Part shown: piece by piece, positions 17,348-32,365 of the stretch
Layout of the letters: every line of letters begins with the position of its first letter
How positions within the stretch are numbered: position 1 is the first letter of the stretch
Made by a program: the position numbers and the translations under genes
Notes under the pieces: generated by a model
Databases searched by the model: none
Seen by the model: the letters and a program-made list of their open reading frames with translations, nothing else
Told to the model about the DNA's origin: nothing
Source: Streptomyces coryli
GTDB taxonomy: Bacteria > Actinomycetota > Actinomycetes > Streptomycetales > Streptomycetaceae
Direction: 5' to 3'
Assembly (NCBI RefSeq): GCF_011044975.1
Contig: NZ_JAAKZV010000071.1
Location: 1 to 33,176 of the forward strand
DNA: 33,176 nt

Positions 17348-17392
17348 GCCGGGCAGGCGTTCAGGAGCCGGGCACAACGGTAGGGGGAGATC

Positions 17393-18862
17393 TTGCGTCA
17401 GGCCGCGGTTGTCTTCGTGCACGGGCTGTTCTCCTCGCCGGCTACCTGGTCGCCGCTGCAGCAGGAGTTATCCGCGGTTCCCGCCGTCGCGGACCAGTTC
17501 GACTTCCTTTTCTTCGAGTACGCGACGCGTCCTGTGACCTGGAACCCGCTGCGCCGTATGCCGGATCTGGACACCGTTGCCGAGAGCTTACGCGGATTCA
17601 TCGGGGATCTCACCGCCGAATACGAGCGGATTGTGCTGGTCACCCACAGCCAAGGCGGCCTGGTTGCCCAGCGTTTCTTGTCGCGCATGCTCCAGGGGAG
17701 TCGAGGAAGAGAACTCGCCAAGATTCGCCGGTTGGTGATGTTCGCTTGCCCGAACAACGGGTCCGATCTTTTCCTGCTGGCCCGCAAAGGGCTGATACCG
17801 GTGACCCGCAATGTCCAGGAGCGTGAACTCAAGCCGCTGCAGACCTCGGTGCTCGAAACGCAGCGCAGAGTCCTCGACGGAATCGTCAGGGCCTTCGACG
17901 TGGCACGGGACCGATGTCCGATCCCCATCGTTGCCTATGCGGGGGAAAGCGACAACGTGGTTGTTCCGTCCTCGGCCGCCGGCTTCTTCCCTGAGACGGG
18001 TGTGCTCCCCGGTGACCACTTCTCCGTCATCCAACCGAACGGGCCGGACAGTCGACTCATCCACGCGGTCTGCAGGGAGCTGGCGCGAGCCCTGGCGGAG
18101 CCCTTCCCGGGCGAACCGCAGTCCGAAGCGGATGTTCCCCACCATCGCCGACCGGTCCCTGTAGCTGCCGATGTGCCGACAGAGCTGGAGGTCGTCGGCC
18201 CCATTCCCGTTCCGGCCGGCGGGGCGGCGGGGCCCGCCACCGAGTTCTTCGTCCACTGCGGGCCGGTGGAGCAGCTCAGGAACGTGGACATCGTGGTCTC
18301 CTCGGAGAACACTCACCTCCAGCTCTCCCAGTTCTTCAAGCCGTCGACATCCGGCAGCCTTCGCTGGGCTGCCGCCGAGAAGAGTGCAAGCGGTCAAATT
18401 CTGGAGGATGTCGCCGGCGAGCATCTGTCCGCGTGGCTGCGAAACCACGGTAGTTACGGATTGCCTGTTCCGGAGGGGACGGTGGCGCCGACACCGTCCG
18501 GCGCGCTTCGGCGACGAAACATCCAGCGGATCTATCACGCGGCTATTACCACCCCGATGTCCGGTACCAACAGCTACCGGATCGCTCCACAGGCCATCCC
18601 TCGGGCTGTGCACAACACATTCGACTTGGCCAGACGGGAGAGGGAGGAGCTGCGAGCGCCGTTGTCCTCCATCTGCTTTCCGCTGTTCGGTTCGGGGCGA
18701 GGGGGGATGAGTGCGGTGGAAAGCTTCGAGCTGATCTGGGAGTCGATGATGAGCGAGCTGGCCGACGACCCGAGTTGGAGCATCCATTTCATGTCCCGGC
18801 GCAGGTCGCACTTCGACCTTCTGTATGGCCGGATCCAGGCGAAGAAGCGGGCGTGCCCGTAA
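17393..18862 (+). CDS. Alpha/beta hydrolase fused to a macro-like domain
   Basis: A 489-residue two-domain protein. Residues 1-235 form an alpha/beta hydrolase: V-F-V-H-G-L-F-S-S at the oxyanion site, nucleophile Ser86 in T-H-S-Q-G-G, likely Asp187 (G-E-S-D-N-V-V) and His209 (G-D-H-F), as in lipases and PGAP1-like esterases. After a Pro-rich linker, residues about 285-470 look like a macro domain: V-D-I-V-V-S-S-E-N in place of V-D-A-I-V-N-A-A-N, then I-Y-H-A-A, then I-C-F-P-L-F-G-S-G-R-G-G, the phosphate-loop region. Macro domains bind ADP-ribose-type ligands. The start must be the TTG at 17393: an in-frame stop lies just upstream, GGGGGA precedes it, and any later start removes the H-G motif. 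Two TTA codons (17468, 17588) and many A/T-ending codons mark it as probably acquired and bldA-dependent. A sensor-effector role is inference. Confidence 0.82.
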   Translation: MRQAAVVFVHGLFSSPATWSPLQQELSAVPAVADQFDFLFFEYATRPVTWNPLRRMPDLDTVAESLRGFIGDLTAEYERIVLVTHSQGGLVAQRFLSRMLQGSRGRELAKIRRLVMFACPNNGSDLFLLARKGLIPVTRNVQERELKPLQTSVLETQRRVLDGIVRAFDVARDRCPIPIVAYAGESDNVVVPSSAAGFFPETGVLPGDHFSVIQPNGPDSRLIHAVCRELARALAEPFPGEPQSEADVPHHRRPVPVAADVPTELEVVGPIPVPAGGAAGPATEFFVHCGPVEQLRNVDIVVSSENTHLQLSQFFKPSTSGSLRWAAAEKSASGQILEDVAGEHLSAWLRNHGSYGLPVPEGTVAPTPSGALRRRNIQRIYHAAITTPMSGTNSYRIAPQAIPRAVHNTFDLARREREELRAPLSSICFPLFGSGRGGMSAVESFELIWESMMSELADDPSWSIHFMSRRRSHFDLLYGRIQAKKRACP

Positions 18863-18915: not shown

Positions 18916-21900
18916 TCAGTACTGGCGGCGCATGAGGCGGACGGCCGTTACGGCGCCGCCCAGGGTGAGGGCGAGGATGGCCCCGCCGATGACGTACTCA
19001 TTGGTGTTGAAGCCCGTGTCCGCCAGGTGCGGCGGCTCCTGCGGGCCGTGCGGGGCCGGCTTGTTGTCGTCCTTGTCCGGGATGGCCGGATCATCCTTGT
19101 CCGGGACGGACGGAGCCGGCTGCGGCTCCGAGGTGGACGGGGCCGGCTCGACGGGCGGGTTGCCCGGGCCCGCCGGCGGGGCGGGCGGGTTGCCCGGCTC
19201 GTCCGGGGTGGGCTCGTCAGACGGCTCGTCCGGCGTCGGCTCGTCCGAGGGGTCGTCCGGCGTCGGCTCGTCCGAAGGGTCGTCCGGCGTGGGCTCGTCA
19301 GACGGCTCATCCGGCGTCGGCTCATCCGACGGCTCAGCCGGCGGCGGCGTCGTCGGGTCGTCCGACGGCTCCGCCGGGTCGCCCGGGTCCTCCTCGTCGA
19401 TCACCCGCACATTCGCGTCCCCCGACTGCACCGGCAGCGCAAGACCGCTTGCCCGCGCGCCCACGCGGTTCGTGTACACGTCGTCGTGCACCGCCCCCTG
19501 CGTCGCCAGCACCAGGTCGTACGACTGCGTCTCGTTCGGTGCCAGCGGGCCGGGGTCGGTGATGCGGTAGCCCGTCACCTCCGCGAGGCTCGCCGGGCAG
19601 CCGGTCTCGCCGAGTTCGGACTCCTCGCACCAGCGGGTGGCGCCGCCGTCGTCGTTGGAGCCGTCCTCCGGGTCGAGGCTGATCGCGTCGGGGGCCGCCG
19701 AGGTGTAGAAGAGCTTCGCGCCGTCGTGCAGCGGGCCCGGGGCCTTGGCGAGGCCGACCGTGCCGTGGAAGTCGCTGGCCGGCGAGCGGCCGTCGCCGCG
19801 GTACGGCAGGGCGTCGATGATGTCGAGGTTCCGCAGCGGGCGCGGGCTGCGGTTGGCGATGGTCATGTCGTACGTGAGGTCGTCGCCGACCTTCTCGACC
19901 GGTACCGGTGCGTGCTTCTCGATCGCCATCGCCGCGCCGTGGGCGATCTGCAGGGCCTGGGTCGCCCTGCGCTGGTCCTCGGGGCTGTTGTCGGCCGGCG
20001 TGGAGGTCTCGACCTCGTTGACGGCCGTGGTCTCCGGGGCCAGCGAGCTCGCCCGTACCTTGAAGGTGATCGGGTCGATCGGCTCGTTGGGCTTCCGGTC
20101 CTTCAGGACCCAGGTGACCGTCGTCGTGCCGTCCTCGTTGGCCTCCACACTGTCCGGCTCGACGGAGGCGCTGCCCGCGTACGAGATCCACTCGGGGAGG
20201 GTGTCGACGACCGTCACGTCATGGGTGCCGGTCCCGTTGGCCTTCGAGGTGAGCGTCGGGTAGAGGGCGTACGTGGCCGTGCCGCCCGCGGTGACCTGAT
20301 AGCTCGGCCGGTCGGGGGCGGTCTCGGCGGTCTCGCCCGGGCCCACCACCTTCTTGTTCACGCGGGTGAGCACCGAGGTGACGGTGACCCGGTCGGCCGC
20401 GCGGCCCAGTGCCTCCTCCGGGTCGCTCGTGTCGTGCACCCACTTCTGCCGGGCCCTGGTCATGCCGAAGTTGCGCAGCCGGTCGCCGTCCTCGGCGCCG
20501 TCCGCGACCTTCAGGTTGGTGTAGTAGTAGCCCATCGTCAGGCCCCTGAGCGGCCCGACGAAGCGGACCTTGCCCACGGCCTTCACACCGCCGGGGACGT
20601 CCGCCGGGTCGTCGTACCAAGGCCCGTCGTCGTCATTGCAGTCGGCCTGCTGCATCTCGCGCGGGCTGCCCCAGTCGGCGGCCGCGTACTCGATCCGCAC
20701 GCCGCTGACGTTCTTGGTCAGGGCGTACGCGCCGGAGGCGTCCGTGGTGAGCGTCTGCAGCTTGTTGTCGAAGGTGTCGCAGGCGTAGAGCGGATCGAAC
20801 GCCGTCACACCGGAGTTGGTGACGCGGACCCGGCTGCGGAAGCTCTCGCCGGGGGTGACGTAGCCGTCGCCGGTCTCGAAGTCGGTGGCGGTGCCCACGG
20901 GGTCGCCGTCCATGGACTCGTACCACTTGCGCAGCAGCAGCTTGCCGTTGACGACCAGGCTGCTCGTGTTGGTGTTGTTGTCCAGCGGCTCTTCGCCGTC
21001 GCCGTAGTTGTCCTGGCCCGAGATGCTCTTCGGGTCGAAGCCGGTGAAGGCGTTCTTGATGGTGACGGTGCCGCCGGGCTTGCCCTCCGCGGCCTGGTTG
21101 ATCGCGTCCTGCGGGATCCAGACCTTGATGTAGCCGGAGATCACGATCGCCGAGTCGGCGGGCAGGGCCTTGCCGCTGGTCGTCTGCGTGGGTACGTGGT
21201 CGGCGCTGGTGTCGGCGCCGGTGACGGTGACGTCGATGTTCGCGCCCGCGCCGGACTGCGTGCAGTCGATGGTGCCGCTCTCCGTGACCCCCTTGGCCCC
21301 CTCACCGCGCCCGGCCGGCTGGCTCGCCGCCTTGTTCGCGGGGTACGGCGCGCAGGCCGGGACGGCGCCCCAGTCGTAGAGGCGGGCGCCGCCCGACGTG
21401 CCGTCGAGGAGTTCGGAGATGTCGTCGGTGAAGGTGAACGGCGAGGCCAGCGGCTCGGAGCCGAGCTGCGGCGAGTGCTTCGGGTCGTCCTGCGCCCTGG
21501 CGTCCACCACGATCGGGAATTCGTAGACGACGCCCGGCTCGTCGTTCGGGCCGTCGGCCTCCGTCTTGGCGATGCCGCCGTTCTTCTTGTCCAGGTCGAA
21601 CTTCGGGGCAGCCGATACGGTGACGGGATCGGCGGCGACGCCCTTGCCGGGTGCATTGTCGGCGCTCACATCGGCGGACACCGGGATCTTGTCGCCGTTC
21701 TTCATGTCGCCGGTCACGCGCAGCAGCACCGGAATGCTGCGGCTGGTGTTGGTGAGGTCGCCGAGATTGCAGATGAGCCGCTGCCCGTCGATTTTCGAGC
21801 CGGGGCCTTTGCAGACGCCGGGCAGCTGCTGCCATTCGGTGCCGACCGGGGCGTCGAGGGTGAAGGTCTCATTCCTGGCGGTGCCGCCGGTGACGTTGAC

Positions 21901-22137
21901 ATCCACCTTGTACTGGATGGTGTCGTGGGTCCGCACGATGCCGTTGTTCGCACCGGAGTCGAGGCCCGGGCCGTCCTCCGCGGTGAAGTTACCGCCGCCG
22001 TCCTTGGCCACCGAAAGCGCGATGTCGATGGTGGGGGCGGCGCCTGATGACGACGCACCCATGACCGCCGGAGCGGTGGCCGTCAGAATTCCCGCTGTCA
22101 ACGCGACCCCTACCGGATGCCGCTTTCGCCAATTCAT
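18916..22137 (-). CDS. Large sortase-anchored surface protein with DUF11-like repeats
   Basis: A 1,073-residue secreted protein. The start M-N-W-R-K-R-H plus a hydrophobic stretch forms a signal peptide cut near A-S-S-S-G-A (about 30). Several hundred residues of beta-sandwich repeats follow, resembling DUF11/isopeptide-type surface repeats (V-R-V-T-N-S-G-V; D-V-T-V-V-D-T-L-P; M-T-I-A-N-R-S-P). A Pro/Asp/Glu-rich stalk contains five 9-residue repeats of P-S-D-E-P-T-P-D-x type. The sorting signal L-A-D-T-G (1038-1042), a membrane helix and the R-R-Q-Y tail end it. L-A-x-T-G is the class E sortase motif, as in streptomycete chaplins, so it is wall-linked. ATG at 22137 has a perfect AAGGAGGTC; the longer frame upstream is not needed. 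Cargo, ligand or adhesive role unknown. Confidence 0.9.
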   Translation of the reverse strand: MNWRKRHPVGVALTAGILTATAPAVMGASSSGAAPTIDIALSVAKDGGGNFTAEDGPGLDSGANNGIVRTHDTIQYKVDVNVTGGTARNETFTLDAPVGTEWQQLPGVCKGPGSKIDGQRLICNLGDLTNTSRSIPVLLRVTGDMKNGDKIPVSADVSADNAPGKGVAADPVTVSAAPKFDLDKKNGGIAKTEADGPNDEPGVVYEFPIVVDARAQDDPKHSPQLGSEPLASPFTFTDDISELLDGTSGGARLYDWGAVPACAPYPANKAASQPAGRGEGAKGVTESGTIDCTQSGAGANIDVTVTGADTSADHVPTQTTSGKALPADSAIVISGYIKVWIPQDAINQAAEGKPGGTVTIKNAFTGFDPKSISGQDNYGDGEEPLDNNTNTSSLVVNGKLLLRKWYESMDGDPVGTATDFETGDGYVTPGESFRSRVRVTNSGVTAFDPLYACDTFDNKLQTLTTDASGAYALTKNVSGVRIEYAAADWGSPREMQQADCNDDDGPWYDDPADVPGGVKAVGKVRFVGPLRGLTMGYYYTNLKVADGAEDGDRLRNFGMTRARQKWVHDTSDPEEALGRAADRVTVTSVLTRVNKKVVGPGETAETAPDRPSYQVTAGGTATYALYPTLTSKANGTGTHDVTVVDTLPEWISYAGSASVEPDSVEANEDGTTTVTWVLKDRKPNEPIDPITFKVRASSLAPETTAVNEVETSTPADNSPEDQRRATQALQIAHGAAMAIEKHAPVPVEKVGDDLTYDMTIANRSPRPLRNLDIIDALPYRGDGRSPASDFHGTVGLAKAPGPLHDGAKLFYTSAAPDAISLDPEDGSNDDGGATRWCEESELGETGCPASLAEVTGYRITDPGPLAPNETQSYDLVLATQGAVHDDVYTNRVGARASGLALPVQSGDANVRVIDEEDPGDPAEPSDDPTTPPPAEPSDEPTPDEPSDEPTPDDPSDEPTPDDPSDEPTPDEPSDEPTPDEPGNPPAPPAGPGNPPVEPAPSTSEPQPAPSVPDKDDPAIPDKDDNKPAPHGPQEPPHLADTGFNTNEYVIGGAILALTLGGAVTAVRLMRRQY
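19198..19332 (-). repeat. Five 27-bp tandem repeats in the stalk of the surface protein
   Basis: Five in-frame 27-base units start at 19198, 19225, 19252, 19279 and 19306, each coding nine residues of the P-S-D-E-P-T-P-D-D/E type. Units one and four share the variant GTGGGCTCGTCAGA, hinting at duplication of a block rather than of single units. The copy number is likely to vary between strains. Confidence 0.9.
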
Positions 22138-22356
22138 GGTATGACCTCCTTTTCCCTCCGTCCCTTGTAGACGATTGCCGTCTATGGCCACCGGAGCCGG
22201 TCTCGCGCCTTTGCGGATGGCAGGGAACTTCACCCGAGCGGCGGGGCCCCGGTCGGGCTGATTTGATTCCTTTCCGAACACGCCATATTTGGTCCGTATG
22301 ATCGGCCGGGCGCTGAGGCATGCTCGGGGTCCGGCGAACTCAGGAAGTCAGGTGCC
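22138..22356. promoter_or_regulatory. Divergent promoter region, surface protein / HAMP gene
   Basis: This 219-base region between divergent genes is less GC-rich near 22261-22303. Candidate plus-strand elements are TTGATT (22263-22268) with TATTTG 17 bases on, and TATGAT (22297-22302) without a clear -35. The minus-strand promoter is not obvious. Confidence 0.3.
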
Positions 22357-31768: not shown

Positions 31769-32365
31769 GTGGCACTGACAGTTCCCGAGCATTCGATGAG
31801 TGATTCCGCTGACTCGTCCACTGCCGCGTCGATCGACGAAGCCTTCGAAGCGTTGAGCGCGGCAACTCCGGAGGGGTGGCGCGTGGAATTGATCGAAGGG
31901 GAAATCCACGTGGTCCCACCCGCTAATGGTGAGCACGAAGGCATCGTCAATCTCATGGTCGAGCAGGTAGTGGAGCGCAGGAAGGACAGGAGGTGGACCA
32001 CGCGCACGGGGCTGGGACTCCTGATTTCTGGAATCTCACCGACGGGCAAGGTCGTGCCTGACCTCGTCATCGTCCCGCGCGGCAGCTACATGGACGAGCT
32101 GGAGTACCACGATCCGTCCGAGGTCGTGCTGGTCGGTGAGGTCACCTCCCGCTCCACCGGCGCCAGCGACCGGTCCTCCAAACTCCGCGGCTACGCCCGT
32201 GCCAAGATCCCGTTCTATCTGCTCGTGGATCGCGATGCCGACGCGGTCAGCCTCTACTCGGAGCCCTCCAGCGGGCAGTACACCCGTGAAGCAACCGTCG
32301 CTATGTCGAAGACGATCGTCCTTCCTCACCCCCTCGGATTCGAGCTGGACACCAGCGAGTTCTGA
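31769..32365 (+). CDS. Uma2-family PD-(D/E)xK nuclease-fold protein
   Basis: A 198-residue Uma2/DUF820 protein. The family pattern is present: V-E-L-I-E-G-E-I-H-V near 37-46, V-P-D-L-V-I-V-P with the metal-binding Asp, and the E-V-x-S motif (V-G-E-V-T-S-R-S-T). K-L-R-G-Y-A-R-A-K-I-P-F-Y-L-L-V-D follows with the conserved Lys and Asp. These proteins have a restriction-nuclease fold, but function is mostly unknown and many copies sit singly in streptomycetes. The GTG start has AAGGAGG upstream, and its -10 is TACCCT at 31731. Its codon bias is a little looser than in its neighbours. Confidence 0.88.
   Translation: MALTVPEHSMSDSADSSTAASIDEAFEALSAATPEGWRVELIEGEIHVVPPANGEHEGIVNLMVEQVVERRKDRRWTTRTGLGLLISGISPTGKVVPDLVIVPRGSYMDELEYHDPSEVVLVGEVTSRSTGASDRSSKLRGYARAKIPFYLLVDRDADAVSLYSEPSSGQYTREATVAMSKTIVLPHPLGFELDTSEF

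Follow-up and report, generated by a model that had tools for sequence, protein, structure and literature searches.

The DNA analyzed here, termed the window, was a stretch of 33,176 nucleotides from Streptomyces coryli. Near its center lies an intact gene encoding an alpha/beta hydrolase joined to a macro domain (Table 1), and the reading frame, strand, TTG start and length of 489 aa were exactly those given in a first-pass annotation made from the sequence. The TTG start fits because alignments to four full-length relatives start at residue 1 or 3, a start codon occupies the equivalent position in three of these four, and AGGGGGAG is present just 5′ of the TTG. TTA codons, which are rare in Streptomyces and are decoded by the bldA tRNA, occur twice in this gene and once, once, once and twice in the four relatives. 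The GC3 of the fusion gene was 0.784, compared to a mean of 0.937 (standard deviation, 0.037) for the 30 other window genes identified with a home-made gene caller, in keeping with the looser codon bias claimed for it earlier. This low GC3 fits acquisition of the gene, which can be maintained as probable. A further called gene with an unusually low GC3 (0.807) is located at positions 31883-32365 on the forward strand of the window.

Table 1. Features of the fusion gene and its product (window positions)
Feature	Position	Strand	Basis
Purine-rich ribosome-binding-like stretch 5′ of TTG	17382-17389	+	Direct sequence reading
Intact alpha/beta hydrolase-macro fusion gene, 489 aa, TTG start	17393-18862	+	ORF reading, relatives
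N-terminal alpha/beta hydrolase module, residues 5-245	17405-18127	+	Pfam, PADLOC, family alignment, family profile
TTA codon 26, first of two	17468-17470	+	Sequence reading
TTA codon 66, second of two	17588-17590	+	Sequence reading
Ser86 codon, predicted nucleophile, in T-H-S-Q-G-G	17648-17650	+	Invariant, 19/19
Asp187 codon, predicted catalytic acid	17951-17953	+	Invariant, 19/19
His209 codon, predicted catalytic base	18017-18019	+	Invariant, 19/19
Variable linker, about residues 246-279	18128-18229	+	Highest dN of three segments
C-terminal macro domain, residues 280-489	18230-18859	+	Profile matches to solved macro domains; hhalign
Asn306 codon in S-S-E-N, predicted ADP-ribose contact (from motif)	18308-18310	+	Invariant, 21/21
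F-G-S-G-R-G-G, residues 432-438, predicted phosphate-binding loop	18686-18706	+	Gly433 and Gly435 invariant, 21/21

As a single sequence, the N-terminal half was matched by Pfam Abhydrolase_6 (E = 2.4e-9, residues 6 to 134), by DUF676 (E = 4.6e-7) and, weakly, by the LmuA model of PADLOC (E = 9.6e-5). A profile of the hydrolase family detected hydroxynitrile lyases and esterases among solved structures, with a best E value of 2.2e-5. Ser86, Asp187 and His209 were retained in all 19 aligned hydrolase halves, the window copy included, and the order of these residues together with the nucleophile elbow motif identifies this half as an alpha/beta serine hydrolase with a predicted Ser-Asp-His triad, intact as the first-pass annotation had held. 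The same module is found at the N terminus of proteins with FG-GAP repeats (L022), EAD2 (L017) or WD40 repeats (L013), ahead of a STAND-like NTPase in L063 (Pfam nSTAND3, 0.0019, below its cut-off) and, by eye, ahead of NB-ARC/TPR parts in L060 to L062; modularity of the conflict type, another of the earlier proposals, was thus observed. A plasmid search returned 33 records matching the fusion protein, each with its best match in the hydrolase half and none covering 80% of the query. Phage records contained no match to the fusion protein, and neither the full protein nor the macro family had a relative among viral contigs. Among the surroundings of individual hydrolase relatives, a Streptomyces plasmid has a gene annotated as a Pycsar system effector (L004, 2238-2702, forward strand) ∼3 kb from a relative of the hydrolase-VCBS/FG-GAP type, cas2e is situated ∼5 kb from a second relative (L008), and a Doc toxin gene adjoins a third (L007).

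Single-sequence searches with the macro half produced weak matches to Pfam Macro (E = 0.023 for residues 338 to 444, under the curated cut-off), to an NCBIfam ADP-ribose-binding protein (0.094) and to three PDB entries (0.13 to 0.34). A profile built from 25 relatives (A1) had as its top matches the solved macro domains of TTHA0132 (2e-5), DR_2288 (2.7e-4), AF1521 (4.7e-4) and macroH2A (6.6e-4); its 28 structure matches at an E value of ≤1 consisted of macro proteins, PARPs, designed proteins (mostly serine hydrolases) and two macroH2A-containing constructs. With a profile of 21 sequences (A5), values of 1.9e-12 for a PARP14 macro domain and 9.1e-11 for TTHA0132 were obtained, and the best 60 of its 64 matches (E ≤ 5) included a few non-macro proteins, the best of which was a flagellin homologue at 0.0081. 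Judged from these sequence profiles, the C-terminal half is predicted to adopt the fold of a genuine, though divergent, macro domain. The fusion of a hydrolase to a macro domain was therefore upheld by profiles that find solved macro domains, and the profile searches did not place this half in a non-macro fold, the counter-case raised in the first-pass annotation. All of the landmarks quoted there, S-S-E-N (containing Asn306), I-Y-H-A-A and F-G-S-G-R-G-G, were present.

The relationships of this macro domain were examined by profile comparison and with a tree. Alignment of the A1 family with a transmembrane-macro family (A2) by hhalign gave a probability of 99.5 and an E value of 5.6e-23. In a midpoint-rooted tree of 21 macro domains, those joined to the hydrolase or to an R-R-x-G part formed one branch and those joined to TIR, transmembrane or L115 parts formed the other (100/100). 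The R-R-x-G part is a helical-looking N-terminal region with R-R-x-G and R-x-x-A-A-x-V-Y-G motifs (L041, L052, L109 and L114), for which no Pfam family was detected. Distant relatives L044 to L051 have, by eye, N-terminal transmembrane helices, and L117 and L118 are fusions to TIR_2 (2e-11 and 3e-12) in which Macro scored above cut-off. These two TIR-macro genes (L117, 355-2160, and L118, 811-2145, both on the forward strand) are from one actinobacterial genome, G702; in L115 (1375-2589, reverse strand), the macro domain, the only part named by Pfam, is preceded by a stretch that by eye resembles nucleoside deoxyribosyltransferases. When 345 genomes were searched class-wide by profile, macro domains of both branches were detected in 13 genomes (14 matches, 4 of which were the more distant L115 to L118). 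Within the A5 set, eight of nine sister-branch domains contained N-x-E-N and one contained S-S-E-N. The N-A-A-N motif is that of hydrolytic MacroD types. The earlier suggestion that the altered S-S-E-N motif favors binding over hydrolysis receives indirect support from the sister-branch motifs and, by analogy, from the ThsA macro domain, which in the available part of PMC11204291 binds ADP-ribose without hydrolyzing the two substrates tested. Kinship of the window domain to that of ThsA appears indirect at the sequence level, as no solved ThsA macro domain was present among 15 structure matches or among the best 60 of 64 for A5.

Full-length fusions were detected in S. hainanensis (88% identity), S. 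jumonjinensis (82%), Actinacidiphila cocklensis (79%) and another Streptomyces genome, G345 (62%), making five genomes with the window included; a scan of the genome collection with the macro half alone returned the first three as the sole relatives. Comparisons of the window copy with the four relatives gave dN/dS values (Nei-Gojobori) of 0.08 to 0.22 for the hydrolase and 0.08 to 0.34 for the macro half, values that indicate purifying selection on both. The linker, set as residues 241 to 279 for this purpose, exceeded the other two segments in dN in each of the four comparisons. The presence of the fusion in four further genomes at this range of identities and the selection acting on both halves indicated that the joining of the two domains was not due to chance.

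In all four relatives, the fusion is immediately followed on the same strand by a gene, located with a home-made frame-bias gene caller, that encodes a RES protein, a member of the NAD+ phosphorylase family. The distance from the fusion to this gene was 161, 74 and 50 bases in L002, L003 and L072, respectively, with the first two values including the stop codon. Pfam RES matched these three partners at 2.2e-17, 1.6e-16 and 7.4e-19, and HEPN/RES N-terminal domain 1 was detected in L003 (1.7e-6), in L072 below cut-off (2.7e-5) and in L002 at 0.06. The partner of the S. hainanensis fusion (L001) matched Pfam RES at 7e-6 for its end, and its RES part exhibited 66, 68 and 47% identity to the other three over about 250 residues. 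In this gene (L001, 3437-4470), the RES part is open and the N-terminal HEPN/RES domain fails to align. Arg164, Glu214 and Ser310 of the RES motif (P0002 numbering) were present in 14, 16 and 16 of 16 RES proteins, and the two proteins lacking the arginine are gene calls that start past this residue. Assignment to RES is based on Pfam: a single-sequence search detected no solved RES structure at an E value of 0.1. PADLOC had no match for the RES partners P0002 and P0004. The NAD/ADP-ribose connection anticipated in the first-pass annotation was upheld. The gene had also been described as isolated, which is accurate for the window copy, with no RES partner in its 33 kb, but not for the relatives; its description as a single-gene system is incomplete, as the gene forms one half of a hydrolase-macro and RES pair in the relatives.

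The fusion and RES were the sole genes common to all four relatives, with other neighbors common to no more than two loci. A mycothiol-S-transferase/DinB-type gene follows RES in L001 (4482-5027) and L002 (12014-12526), on the forward strand in both, and the two copies are 39% identical; a set of ABC transporter genes precedes the fusion in L002 and follows RES in L072. These genes, found at two loci each, would fit a metabolic setting, in which the fusion would be a horizontally acquired metabolic or housekeeping esterase tuned by the level of ADP-ribose and devoid of any conflict role. Such a role is also consistent with the lack of defense genes in the scanned set of 10 window ORFs and with PADLOC results that were weak for the window fusion and negative for the G345 fusion. 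We consider it very unlikely, however, as the fusion is sparse (at least 3 of 392 Streptomyces genomes) and low in GC3, its hydrolase module is reused in receptor-like proteins, and RES is both linked to it and the only gene that accompanies it in all four relatives. The counter-case in which homologues are always situated in a metabolic operon did not hold, and the neighbors of the fusion genes do not form a recognized defense island.

Linkage was then quantified in 392 Streptomyces genomes (a set that excludes G003, Actinacidiphila), with macro and hydrolase counts being lower bounds because four candidates were scored per genome. A RES gene was present within 10 kb of 61 of the 64 genes with this type of macro domain (3/3 fusions and 58/61 others) but of none of the 23 hydrolase-only genes or 10 remote macro genes, with each gene classed according to which part of the query it matched. 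These counts derive from 97 of 100 rows, the remaining three (G013, G356 and G169) being second pieces of genes already counted. At a distance of 1.5 kb, RES accompanied the 3 fusions and 35 of the 61 others. The three macro genes without RES within 10 kb were those of G273 and G308, with RES on another contig, and G383, with RES 784 kb away. By genome, a RES match (E ≤ 0.001) was detected in 59/59 macro-bearing genomes versus 33/333 others; of the resulting 92 RES-positive genomes, 83 were over the Pfam cut-off. The Fisher value for the linkage was 1.4e-46, which is not a probability over independent events as the genomes are related. Macro-RES distances fell into three groups (0.6 to 1.6, 4.2 to 4.7 and 7.4 to 8.9 kb), and gene content and orientation varied among the fetched loci, indicating that the association is not one frozen arrangement, with the same proviso that related genomes do not supply independent events. 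These data demonstrated that RES is linked to the macro half rather than to the hydrolase half. Eight of the 10 remote macro genes were read (L044 to L051, transmembrane-macro genes by eye), the other two being those of G241 and G150; neither TIR nor RES was found near L044 to L051. No TIR gene was present near any of the 10 remote macro genes, though one was expected, which speaks against interpreting that branch as plain Thoeris.

Thirteen of the 61 non-fusion macro genes, picked for a nearby RES gene, are part of larger loci (L084 to L096) that contain macro, RES and antitoxin-like genes and varying combinations of extra genes, representatives of which match CHAT, a radical-SAM-type domain, protein kinase, ClpB-like AAA, FHA and vWA. 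The antitoxin-like gene, C1 (about 200 to 260 aa), is directly beside RES in 13/13 of these loci; on visual inspection, the three examples read are similar to an Xre/MbcA-ParS antitoxin, and the one tested had no Pfam family. These loci look like a multigene conflict or stress system, and we know of no previous description of them.

The window itself contains no RES gene within its 33 kb, as determined by tblastn with three partners; hence, the window gene may be an orphan, albeit an intact one, or may respond to a signal made elsewhere. The 10 ORFs scanned, which included both flanking genes, contained no defense or TIR genes. The next gene encodes a DUF11 protein on the opposite strand and ends 53 bases downstream of the fusion gene. 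This protein (18916-22281, reverse strand) carries acidic, proline-rich repeats at its C terminus; visual inspection also revealed a sorting-like LADTG motif ahead of a hydrophobic tail. The lack of RES and the closeness of the oppositely oriented gene raise the prospect that the window copy is a remnant, functionless in this strain following loss of RES. We view this as quite improbable given the open frame, the retained catalytic residues and the low dN/dS of both halves, though a recent loss would not be apparent from the last of these. An empty-site comparison was performed with five relatives: those with the flanking acyltransferase lacked DUF11 and the one with DUF11 lacked the acyltransferase. 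As these two genes were never side by side, the insertion point is not definable.

Taken together, the architecture and linkage are compatible with the fusion being the sensor-effector of a two-gene NAD+-signaling conflict module with RES, a proposal that we regard as having an even chance of being correct. The RES enzyme would cleave NAD+ to generate ADP-ribose-1″-phosphate, the expected product by analogy with characterized RES enzymes; the C-terminal macro domain, as a putative sensor, would bind this product or a close relative; binding would release or cluster the N-terminal hydrolase; and the putative effector would cut an ester or lipid, resulting in arrest of growth or of phage production. 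ADP-ribose-1″-phosphate is the established product of NatT in the available text of PMC11535050 and of MbcT in that of PMC8883491, where macro domains are also described as binding or processing molecules of the ADP-ribose-phosphate type.

Linkage of macro and RES genes gives no direction, and RES could be a toxin with the macro protein as its eraser. This is the main rival explanation, one that we rate as unlikely: the macro domain would remove or hydrolyze ADP-ribose-1″-phosphate or ADP-ribosyl adducts and the hydrolase would cleave an ester-linked adduct. There are precedents in the accessible sections of PMC8883491, namely the hydrolysis of cyclic ADP-ribose phosphate by the macro proteins Poa1p and MacroD1/2 and the neutralization of an ART-type toxin by the macro protein DarG. 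Among the genes adjoining RES at the compact fusion loci, none was recognized as an Xre antitoxin, and a solitary antitoxin, such as the window copy would be, would be harmless and could persist. In the larger loci, however, C1 is beside RES in every case and, if it is an Xre-type antitoxin, a macro antitoxin is not needed there; the hydrolase family also occurs in receptor-like proteins without RES (0/23 linked), and the motif is S-S-E-N rather than that of the hydrolytic MacroD types. Reuse of the hydrolase in receptor-like proteins and the position of C1 lead us to lean toward an effector, while the DarG precedent leans toward an eraser.

If the sensor-effector reading is followed further, RES-made ADP-ribose-1″-phosphate (or a relative) might be an immune second messenger and a dedicated macro lineage might switch on interchangeable effectors, here a serine hydrolase, as a RES counterpart of Thoeris of which the large Streptomyces RES/macro loci are the elaborate form. 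This wider proposal is tentative and somewhat more apt to be wrong than right. According to the available part of PMC11535050, no RES toxin-antitoxin system has been implicated in immunity and the known NAD-targeting immune systems use TIR and SIR2 only. The RES-macro link, including the two-gene hydrolase form, makes a direct test possible. Binding and activation of the macro-hydrolase by the RES product would add a new enzyme class and messenger to NAD-based immune signaling, whereas a negative outcome, in which the macro domain instead turned the product over, would point to a new way of taming RES toxins. The position of the fusion gene beside that of an NAD-consuming enzyme in related bacteria suggests a two-gene alarm by which the breakdown of NAD would be converted into a response that damages or protects the cell.

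Several known systems share parts with this one. In transmembrane-macro Thoeris, a TIR protein makes a nucleotide that is bound by the macro domain of the effector ThsA, which then oligomerizes (PMC11204291, available part). Membership of Thoeris was rejected: the fusion has a hydrolase as its N-terminal half and no transmembrane part, and TIR_2 or ThsB_TIR genes were not found near the four fusion relatives, with the nearest being 109 kb away in G345 and the G001 contig extending for 9.9 kb. In both systems, a macro domain that is the putative sensor for a nucleotide derived from NAD+ is fused to an effector, and distant relatives of the window domain have transmembrane-macro (the form of ThsA in type II Thoeris) and TIR-macro architectures; they differ in that a hydrolase replaces the transmembrane helices and the linked NAD+-cleaving enzyme is RES and not TIR. 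With RES as generator, macro domain as sensor and hydrolase as effector, the anatomy could be read, by analogy, as Thoeris with changed parts.

The RES-Xre modules NatRT and MbcTA have a RES protein with the same R-E-S residues, and a gene that on visual inspection is similar to Xre antitoxins adjoins RES in the larger macro loci; here, however, a macro protein is added, and the compact loci show RES with a HEPN/RES domain at its N terminus (unambiguous for L003) and no recognized Xre gene. A macro partner of RES is not named in the available portions of PMC11535050 and PMC8883491, nor is a RES-macro pair present in that of PMC9503650. DarTG likewise pairs an ART-superfamily enzyme with a macro-domain protein, but RES is not DarT, the fusion has an additional hydrolase domain, and there is no evidence of DNA modification. 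The match of the LmuA model is shared with Lamassu, from which the fusion differs in its C-terminal macro domain and in the lack of an SMC-type gene among those flanking genes that were scanned. The EAD/STAND/VMAP systems of Kaur et al. 2020 (PMC7159879) resemble the present family in the fusion of the hydrolase to EAD2 and a STAND-like NTPase; in the part of that article available, EAD2 is a coupling adaptor in conflict systems and alpha/beta-hydrolase and, separately, Macro domains are named among the parts of these systems, but neither a hydrolase-macro fusion nor RES coupling was found, and the word "RES" does not occur in the main text. No RES-macro pair or hydrolase-macro effector was the subject (title or start of abstract) of the open-access matches listed in a literature search, a source that mostly excludes subscription journals and preprints. 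The new element is the pairing of enzymes, RES with a hydrolase-macro protein; the kind of system, a sensor-effector responding to an NAD-derived signal, is a known one.
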